This document shows, piece after piece, positions 6,912 to 46,707 of a stretch of DNA of 64,000 bases. Source of the stretch: Paenibacillus sp. JNUCC32 (lineage in GTDB: Bacteria > Bacillota > Bacilli > Paenibacillales > Paenibacillaceae). A program made the position numbers and the translations under genes. Numbering within the stretch: position 1 is the first letter of the stretch; each line of letters opens with the position of its first letter. The notes under the pieces were generated by a model that saw only the letters and a program-made list of their open reading frames with translations, searched no databases and had not been told where the DNA came from. The stretch lies in assembly GCF_014863545.1 (NCBI RefSeq), contig NZ_CP062260.1:6469501-6533500 (forward strand). Direction: 5' to 3'.

Positions 6912-6933
6912 GGAAACTGCCCTGAGCGCAGAA

Positions 6934-7028
6934 GGCGGAATTGTTTTGGAGAAGCGACCAGGTCGCCTTTGCCCACGGATTCCAATAATAAGGAGTCTGG
7001 GGGCAGCGGCGATCAGAAGAACAGTCCG
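6934..7028 (+). repeat. Structured intergenic element R, copy 1 (between deoD and pdp)
   Basis: First of three related elements in the window (others at 29003-29113 and 46456-46564). It shares GGCGGAATTGTT, GGTCGCCTTTGCCC and a right-hand GGGGGCAGCGGCGATCAGAA with copy 2. The left arm GGCGGAATTGTTTT can pair with the right arm AGAACAGTCCG. Inside, TCGCC...GCCC faces GGGC...GGCGA, and GGATTCC faces GGAGTC at the tip. It sits inside an operon. No coding role is likely. Confidence 0.7.
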
Positions 7029-7088
7029 TATTTGTAGTGATTCCCGTGAAAGGAATACAATCATCGCAAACAGTGAGGAGAATGTACG

Positions 7089-28953: not shown

Positions 28954-29002
28954 GTGGCGACTTTATAGTGTGAGCCCTGGGCAAAGGACTCCAACGAAGC
29001 AG

Positions 29003-29113
29003 GCGGAATTGTTCTGTAGAAACGGAGTGGTCGCCTTTGCCCCCGAACTCCCACGATTGATTTCGTGGTTCAAAGGAAATTTGGGGGCAACAGCGATCGG
29101 AAGAATAATCCGC
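29003..29113 (+). repeat. Structured intergenic element R, copy 2
   Basis: GCGGAATTGTTCT (29003-29015) pairs with AGAATAATCCGC (29102-29113). Then TCGCC-TTTGCCCCC faces GGGGGCAA-CAGCGA. The tip is the perfect hairpin CCACGA-TTGATT-TCGTGG. Copy 1 (6934-7028) is close in sequence; copy 3 (46456-46564) keeps the core TCGCCTTT and AACAGCGATCGGA but has different arms. It lies between map and pdxK. Confidence 0.75.
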
Positions 29114-29133
29114 AGGCGGAGTGATGCGTTACC

Positions 29134-29403
29134 ATGAAGGATTCGACATCTGCGAATAGACGTCAATCCCAGTTTTTCTTTAGAGATCAGGAAGAAAAAG
29201 CGCCGAAGCTCGATCGACTTGATCTCGCAAGAAAAACAACCGCTAATGAAGGATTCGACATCTGCGAATAGACGTCAATCCCAGTTTTTCTTTAGAGATC
29301 AGGAAGAAAAAGCGCCGAAGCTCGATGACTTGATCTCGCAAGAAAAACAACCGCTAATGAAGAATTCGACATCTGCGAATAGACGTCAATCCCAGTTTTT
29401 CTT
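29134..29403 (+). repeat. Palindromic repeat cluster B (2.4 tandem units, period 111-112 bp)
   Basis: Full units at 29229-29292 and 29340-29403 start AAGAAAAAC and end GTTTTTCTT. A 5'-truncated unit occupies 29134-29180. Within each unit GGATTCGACATCT pairs with AGACGTCAATCC around GCGAAT (in the last unit the first arm begins GAATT). Spacers between units carry GAGATCA inverse to TGATCTC. Termini, unit length and alternation with hairpin spacers match cluster A at 9964-10188. The last unit ends at CTTATAAT, so it may supply a -10 box for pdxK. Confidence 0.8.
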
Positions 29404-46360: not shown

Positions 46361-46388
46361 GACGCGACTAAGGTACGCGTCTTTTTTG
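46361..46388 (+). terminator. Terminator after the YesMN pair
   Basis: AGACGCG (46361-46367) is inverse to CGCGTCT (46377-46383), then six T. Confidence 0.85.
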
Positions 46389-46455
46389 TTTTCCCCTTTT
46401 CCTCCCCAAGGCATTAGCGGGGAATCCAAATGCTGCGAAGCATAGAGCGGAGGGG

Positions 46456-46564
46456 CCGGAATCTTATCGGAGAAGCGCCAGCGCTCGCCTTTAAAGCCGG
46501 GAAACCACCTCCCCGTATCAATCGAAGTTTTCCGGGTTTAACAGCGATCGGAGATACGATCCGG
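46456..46564 (+). repeat. Structured intergenic element R, diverged copy 3
   Basis: The core AGAAGCG-CCAG-TCGCCTTT and the right-hand AACAGCGATCGGA match copies 1 and 2, but the arms differ. CCGGAATCTTATC (46456-46468) pairs with GATACGATCCGG (46553-46564), and TTTAAAGCCGGGAAA faces TTTTCCGGGTTTAA. The pairing is therefore kept by compensating changes. It lies between a terminator and the start of the LplB-type gene. Confidence 0.65.
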
Positions 46565-46707
46565 ACACGGAGCGGCATAAAGGTCTTTCGCATTTTCCCT
46601 CCCACCGTTAATGTCTAATTTTTATATGATTTTTAAGCCAATCCTTCGGGTACTTCCCCGCCCCAGCTTGGTTTATCATCAGGATATACAAGAGAGGAGG
46701 GGTTGGT

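Follow-up and report, generated by a model that had tools for sequence, protein, structure and literature searches.

The element and its surroundings

The window analysed here, a stretch of 64,000 nt from Paenibacillus sp. JNUCC32 (contig NZ_CP062260.1, positions 6,469,501 to 6,533,500), carries three intergenic copies of one element. A first-pass annotation made from the letters of the window had placed them at 6934-7028, 29003-29113 and 46456-46564, and all three are present at these positions with the cores and stems quoted there intact. Copy 1 is flanked by a gene of the phosphorylase superfamily (PNP_UDP_1) and by one for a pyrimidine nucleoside phosphorylase (Pfam), and the six neighbouring genes examined in the window show no common theme by Pfam. 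Directly behind copy 2 there is a 112-bp tandem repeat (29134-29403; 2.4 copies, 98% match), at the place of which relatives carry related sequence or additional copies of the element. Upstream of copy 3 and after a response-regulator gene, a GACGCG...CGCGTC hairpin with a T-run was seen by eye at 46361-46390, and is absent from the output of the scan.

The covariance model places the conserved cores, all on the + strand, at 6921-7042 (copy 1; cmsearch score 104.9 bits), 28989-29126 (copy 2; 128.4 bits) and 46442-46577 (copy 3, model positions 1-136; 115.7 bits), and in all three copies the core reaches 13-14 nt past the earlier bounds on either side. Folded on the + strand, copies 1 and 2 exceed their shuffles (z of -6.15 and -4.81, respectively). 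Copy 3 alone folds no better than shuffled sequence on that strand (z of -0.69), and therefore the case for this copy is comparative; an orthologous copy is found in five of the five relatives compared, in one of them with the inner helix P2 deleted. The short motif AACAGCGATCGGA was tried as a diagnostic marker and rejected, its frequency not being above chance (23 occurrences in the window at up to three mismatches, 25.4 expected).

Architecture and covariation

From the outside inwards, the structure comprises a helix P0; a symmetric internal loop, GC-GGA-G / C-GNA-GC; a helix P1 with a bulged A; a three-way junction holding GGAGAA and a 2-bp mini-hairpin; a helix P2a; a CT/CA internal loop; a helix P2b; and a variable tip. 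Copy 3 has these parts on the + strand as follows. The two sides of its internal loop, characterised by the G.A and A.G pairs of the 88-copy set, are placed by alignment at 46447-46452 (5') and 46568-46573 (3'). The strands of P1 (46456-46468, with the bulged A, and 46553-46564) and of P2b (46491-46505 and 46527-46541) are given by alignments and covariation of 16 and 88 copies, and those of P2a (46483-46488 and 46544-46549) by the 16-copy alignment and its covariation. The mini-hairpin GC-GCCA-GC, with a GNNA loop, occupies 46475-46482 by its sequence and by the loop tally of 88 copies, and the 16-copy alignment puts the variable apical loop at 46506-46526. Probable P0 strands, with limits set by eye, lie at 46421-46441 and 46578-46597, where the flanks form a duplex of -26.4 kcal/mol against a permuted mean of about -12.

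Two alignments were examined for covariation: the first (A2) holds 16 full-length copies of the window's own genome, including the three of the window; the second (A4) holds 88 copies from 83 selected loci (E at most 1e-12) and was fitted to the structure of the model, so that it leans towards that structure. Among the 16 copies 93.8% of cells pair and 23 of 35 pairs change on both sides, with 63 double-change cells against 17.1 +/- 3.3 after shuffling; none of 500 shuffles reaches 63, and sliding the partner by 1-3 columns leaves at most 13. In the 88-copy alignment, with its lean, the standard share of the pair cells is 94.8%. Both sides vary in 29 of the 35 pairs, and the double-change cells number 371, against 85.9 +/- 13.2 shuffled and a maximum of 73 in the slid controls. 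The stems thus covary far beyond chance in both alignments, bearing out the earlier proposal of selection on base pairing. The core that had been called fixed proves to covary as well: pair 46/107 is G-C in 11 copies, C-G in two, U-A in one and U-G in one (16-copy alignment).

Pairing also continues outside the stems first described. Model pairs 12/127 and 13/126 covary (59 against 35.4 and 70 against 53.4, respectively), and at pair 6/133 the standard pairing found in 86 of the 88 copies compares with 68.6 when shuffled (maximum 76). In the internal loop, pair 8/131 is G.A in 86 of 88 copies and pair 10/129 is A.G in 87 of 88, and every base of the CT/CA loop has its consensus identity in at least 90% of the 88 copies. 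Beyond the core, the adjoining 40-nt flanks pair at -17.5 kcal/mol against -11.9 for permuted partners (73 copies, p = 4e-8), and 28 of the 73 copies fall below -20 kcal/mol against 4.8% of permuted pairs. No excess complementarity is present in the flanks 40-80 nt out (-14.4 against -13.6 kcal/mol permuted, p = 0.26), and those 200-240 nt out equal their own permutations (-15.4 against -15.6 kcal/mol, p = 0.62). An initial comparison of flanks had given similar means for the far (-15.35 kcal/mol) and near (-17.46 kcal/mol) ones, but the far flanks match their own permutations and the near flanks do not. The outer helix P0 is therefore real, but it is clear in only part of the copies; in the window this is copy 3 only, P0 being weak or absent in copy 1 (-17.0 kcal/mol) and copy 2 (-13.8 kcal/mol). 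The stems of the first-pass annotation accordingly stand as described, within a structure that is longer than the bounds given there by the GGA/GNA internal loop and, in many copies, by the outer helix.

In one variant of the element the 5' strand of P2 is longer by about 40 nt, the additional sequence, GAAAGCTTTCC...GGAAAGCT, being a hairpin in its own right (L241, L243, L261, L267, L044, L153:16027-16195 and L161:15535-15711). Matches at six further loci (L242, L246, L247, L255, L258 and L265) equal this variant in length, length being the sole character compared.

Distribution of the family

A BLAST search of the own genome with copy 2 gave 20 matches, on both strands. The first-pass annotation had proposed a covariance model, a search of Paenibacillus genomes and a comparison with Rfam, all of which were carried out. 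The covariance model (R1) gives 45 matches in the own genome, five of them antisense echoes of the long hairpin, which leaves 40, some partial and some in tandem. Matches were found in 41 of 41 sampled genomes of the genus (own included; 5 to at least 81 each, echoes counted in), in 239 of 296 genomes and 34 of 48 genera of the order sample, and in 40 of 398 genomes of the class sample. Of these 40, 38 belong to the window's order, and the two outside it have a single marginal match each (E of 3.6e-5 and 5.2e-4). Within this bacterial order the element forms a major repeat family, and a genome often has dozens of copies.

Only three of 72,556 plasmid records have matches, all from Paenibacillus; two large replicons of Paenibacillus cellulosilyticus classed as plasmids, NZ_CP054613.1 and NZ_CP054609.1, have 15 and 4 matching places. 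The covariance model search found no matches in phage records. The exact junction motif is present in nine stretches of predicted viral contigs (L305-L313), three of which have it some 665 nt after their first base; these are perhaps host flank or a prophage attachment region.

Rfam 15 gave no match in the window at the gathering score and none with E up to 1 in four copy-bearing loci, in agreement with the earlier statement that the motif belongs to no recognised RNA family. Among the highest-ranked titles of the literature on bacterial repeats, no description of this family was found. A Paenibacillus transcriptome has been compared with Rfam (PMC5670726), the word 'repeat' being absent from the accessible main text, and the accessible part of PMC8632094 makes no mention of Paenibacillus.

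Tandem arrays of element plus spacer, with periods of about 200-400 nt, occur at L080, L081, L082, L083, L087 and L088 and, in the own genome, at L084, L085 and L086. In the one array examined in detail (L080, genome G006; period 338-343 nt) units and spacers are near-identical, and therefore recent tandem duplication is indicated; an integron-like cassette array was rejected for this array on the same ground.

Ends, target duplications and occupancy of single sites

The limits of the element were resolved in G020, a draft MAG of the same genus as the window's genome, from which the best-scoring 20 copies were taken and 18 aligned. Among the pairs listed, copies are 83-97% identical over a unit that reaches about 40 nt past the core on either side. 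Terminal inverted repeats, GGCTCAA...TTGAGCC, lie about 36-40 nt outside the core, and the end pattern has 89 matches in G020 against none for the reversed control. Directly outside these ends there are 8-bp direct repeats: in those copies whose two ends could be recognised (12 of 20), the flanking 8-mers agree at 5.83 of 8 positions on average, against 2.92 when permuted. Seven of the 12 agree at 7 or 8 positions, as do 0.76% of permuted pairs, and the other five at 3 or 4; duplication widths of 4-7 and 9-11 show little or nothing in the same copies. At the core edge no target duplication was found in 75 copies scanned, because the true ends lie some 36-40 nt further out. Target duplications are resolved in this one genome; scanning at a fixed offset yielded no clear signal in G010, G271, G004 or G221, the scan being so blunt that it also missed the known duplication in G020. 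Outside G020 its end pattern has two matches, in P. turicensis and P. eucommiae, with no gene between the ends.

At the 17 of 30 G020 loci with a recognised right end, the element measures 106 to 361 bp between its ends, and one further end pairing of 1,020 bp spans a second element. Nested deletions, cut close to the stem bases, have removed P2, P1 or the whole element except its terminal repeats (L245, L249, L252, L256 and L264). Scored against the genes of a home-made gene finder, 78 of 79 cores overlap none, the exception being L099.

The ends differ between species. The core consensus of G020 (15 copies) is 0.70 identical to that of G010 (7 copies), against 0.34 and 0.35 for the left and right flanks; eight shuffles of the left flank gave 0.19-0.44, so that the ends of the two genomes are no more alike than shuffled sequence. 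Both flank pairs nevertheless form helices, of -32.4 and -15.2 kcal/mol.

Single sites are occupied unevenly. At the site of copy 1, for which 30 loci were compared from 52 genomes of the genus with a match, four have a full element, two an element with P2 deleted, one a remnant recognised by eye, and 23 no model match; the start of the downstream gene is kept in view in 28 of the 30. The site of copy 2 is empty in G337 and has between one and three copies in four relatives. The site of copy 3 is common to all six species, G337 having lost P2 and kept the P1 hairpin; copy 3 is regarded as an old member of the family.

By the tests run, this is a MITE-like mobile element: short and non-coding, with terminal inverted repeats and, in G020, an 8-bp target duplication. 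Where the first-pass annotation had left the choice between a structured RNA and a short non-autonomous mobile repeat, the terminal repeats, the duplications and the presence or absence at single sites uphold the mobile half, and the folded strand may be either RNA or single-stranded DNA.

Strand, orientation and alternative readings

Wobble pairs are distributed unequally between the strands. On the + strand of the 88 copies G-U occurs 169 times and A-C 35 times; a single, nearly constant G.U pair contributes 47 of the 169, and without it the counts are 122 against 35, while at one P1 pair A-C equals G-U with 16 each. The 16-copy set gives G-U 51 against A-C 10, 14 of the 51 at the constant pair. 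Since a constraint on double-stranded DNA or on a cruciform would show no such difference, we infer from the imbalance that one strand folds. G-U and G-T both wobble, so this excess fits RNA or DNA, and the folded strand could be single-stranded DNA or RNA. The loop of the mini-hairpin is G-N-A in 31 and G-N-N-A in 52 copies (83 of 88 together); the third place is a pyrimidine in 45 of the 52 tetraloops, which are thus mostly not GNRA, and the outer pair of the stem is replaced, G-C by A-U, in eight copies. In PMC4686876, extraordinary stability is attributed to DNA mini-hairpins that combine a loop of the GNA or GNNA type with two or more G-C pairs. The loops of the element follow this DNA rule, an analogy that suggests, as the best hint and short of proof, a role as single-stranded DNA; the energy parameters for the mini-hairpin do not separate RNA from DNA. 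For the form that is recognised, single-stranded DNA is our leading, still tentative, candidate, RNA comes second as a real possibility, and recognition as double-stranded DNA only is the least expected of the three.

The same features bear on whether the fold is selected at all. An ordinary MITE could in principle acquire covariation from palindrome-correcting template switching in replication, and the hairpin-linked deletions and tandem duplications described above attest that replication does stumble here. Such correction would erase mismatches, yet the G.A and A.G pairs, the CT/CA loop and a G.N(N).A loop whose middle varies freely all persist, and it predicts no excess of G-U over A-C; we consider this origin quite improbable.

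Orientation was scored against genes called with a home-made codon-usage finder. Of 79 loci, some of them array mates or orthologues, 45 lie in sense and 14 in antisense between codirectional genes (9 convergent, 4 divergent, 7 incomplete; binomial p = 7e-5), and among 30 loci in G020 the counts are 17 sense and 2 antisense (3 convergent, 3 divergent, 5 incomplete; p = 7e-4). This orientation with the flanking genes speaks against a mobile reading, as random intergenic insertion would need later selection to produce it. The + strand is also codirectional with the replication fork in 22 of 28 copies of G000 (oriC taken from dnaA) and in 27 of 37 copies, the best-scoring ones, of four further genomes. 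In this direction the + strand is the template of lagging-strand synthesis, a place at which DNA is exposed in single-stranded form. Gene direction follows the fork as well, 19 of 20 codirectional gene pairs of G000 being on the leading strand, so that replication and transcription are inseparable as causes of the strand bias.

Sense orientation, the preference for G-U on one strand and the strong covariation would also fit a structured non-coding RNA or a cis-regulatory mRNA element with a host function, for example a hairpin that processes or stabilises mRNA, multiplied over the order. A host function of this kind fits poorly with a first site at which 23 of 30 Paenibacillus loci have no model match and three of the remaining seven show decay, with a second site that varies from none to three copies among related species, and with window neighbours that share no theme; the terminal repeats and 8-bp duplications, moreover, mark DNA mobility. 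We regard it as unlikely. The fold of one strand and the sense orientation would also suit a SINE-like element that spreads by reverse transcription of its RNA. Fixed target duplications together with terminal inverted repeats are, however, what DDE transposition leaves, and a SINE-like origin is very improbable on that account.

Insertion sequences and the transposase partner

In two genomes, G113 and G111, the element sits inside an insertion sequence of about 1.97 kb that is bounded by GGGGCTGTCCC and has its DDE transposase on the strand opposite to the element (Pfam DDE_Tnp_1_6, DUF772 and DDE_Tnp_1), which we take to be of the IS1182 type. IS1182-like insertion sequences with GGGGCTGTCCC ends and the element upstream of the transposase, on the other strand, were seen at L165, L166, L168, L173 and L174 (transposase of 532 aa in L166), and the same end near the element at L069, L071 and L072. 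The element might on this evidence be a passenger of IS1182-like insertion sequences throughout, with no mobility of its own, but a GGGACAGCCCC end lies within 150 nt at only 3 of 79 loci (76 have none), and the copies of G020 have their own ends and duplications. This is the least probable of the readings considered, and membership of the IS1182-like group is rejected by the same count; in the insertion sequence of G113 and G111 itself the element is carried along and does not drive the movement.

No transposase partner was found among the families searched, namely Y1 in the own genome and ISL3, IS1595 and IS256 in G020. The own genome has no match to the Y1 (HUH) transposase PF01797. ISL3 transposases are absent from the own genome and from G020, in pieces in G010 and present in G028; IS1595 and IS256 family transposases are absent from G020, a draft MAG in which absence is weak evidence. 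Eight genes near unpaired ends in G020 (12 stretches) are ordinary host genes, with no transposase by Pfam.

A model for the element

Taken together, we regard it as probable that the copies are order-specific, non-autonomous mobile DNA elements with a folded interior, which make 8-bp duplications and are moved in trans. An intact element would measure about 200-230 bp and would be mobilised by a transposase acting in trans, leaving the 8-bp target duplications seen in one relative. P0 would represent its pair of terminal inverted repeats, species-specific in sequence with self-complementarity kept, and the inner core of about 136 nt would have to fold from one strand, the folded unit consisting of P1 with its bulged A, the 2-bp GNA/GNNA mini-hairpin, P2a, the CT/CA internal loop, P2b and a free tip. 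Since individual copies appear, multiply and decay, the target of selection would be the propagation of the element itself and not host genes, and no gene-specific function would be expected at the three sites of the window. We infer that the core may serve as a handle recognised by the mobilising machinery or by a host protein; its likeliest form is single-stranded DNA that becomes exposed in the course of transcription or on the lagging-strand template. A stricter form of this proposal, in which an order-wide element has a selected interior of folded single-stranded DNA, built as a three-way junction and including both the mini-hairpin with its GNA/GNNA loop and the GGA/GNA internal loop, that a conserved host or transposase protein reads on the lagging-strand template, with ends swapped between species, is a possibility that we hold doubtful.

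The family poses a testable question, namely whether a mobile element can depend on a folded internal single strand, and whether that strand is DNA or RNA. Its tandem arrays and nested hairpin deletions also form a natural record of replication slippage at palindromes.

Comparison with known systems

ERIC, which is the same as RU-1, makes a TA target duplication, and we know of no partner for it. Membership of ERIC is rejected for the present family by the 8-bp duplication in G020 and by the restriction of 38 of the 40 matching class genomes to the window's order. ERIC is likewise an intergenic small mobile repeat; by description it is set apart by its occurrence in another order and by TA instead of 8-bp duplications, and a conserved interior with species-specific ends distinguishes the Paenibacillales element. 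The enterobacterial intergenic repeat units, of 127 bp, are described in part of PMC2759123 as MITE-like small mobile sequences. The bcr1 repeat of the Bacillus cereus group, about 150 bp long (PMC2267715) and classed among bacterial MITEs in part of PMC3733652, is likewise a Firmicute repeat of the MITE class. It is set apart by description, bcr1 being described for the B. cereus group and R1 giving two marginal single matches outside the order in 398 class genomes. The Coxiella repeat QMITE2 has, according to part of PMC10969869, direct repeats of 7-9 bp, terminal inverted repeats of 23-29 bp, a core of 113-145 bp and a foldable transcript, and so resembles the Paenibacillales element in direct repeats, terminal repeats, core size and foldability; its host is unrelated, and the accessible part of PMC10969869 does not mention a covarying interior. 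By analogy, bcr1, the enterobacterial repeat units and QMITE2 appear to be the nearest analogues seen.

Systems that use a folded single strand share other traits with the element. In REP/RAYT and at the ends of IS200/IS605, a folded single strand with a bulged base serves as the recognition handle, and the likeness extends to GGAG-like unpaired motifs. To our knowledge this class makes no 8-bp duplications, unlike the Paenibacillales element, and membership of either system is rejected, there being no Y1 transposase in the own genome. The attC sites of integrons act as single-stranded DNA whose fold has a bulged base, an unpaired central part and a variable tip, and in them structure is kept while sequence drifts. 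The folded design is similar; compared by description, the Paenibacillales element is dispersed, not gathered into a cassette array at an integrase, and has terminal repeats and duplications of its own. A MITE, as generally understood, conserves its ends as the sites of transposase binding and lets its middle drift; against this the division found here is unusual, the middle being held by structure and the ends differing between species yet staying paired.
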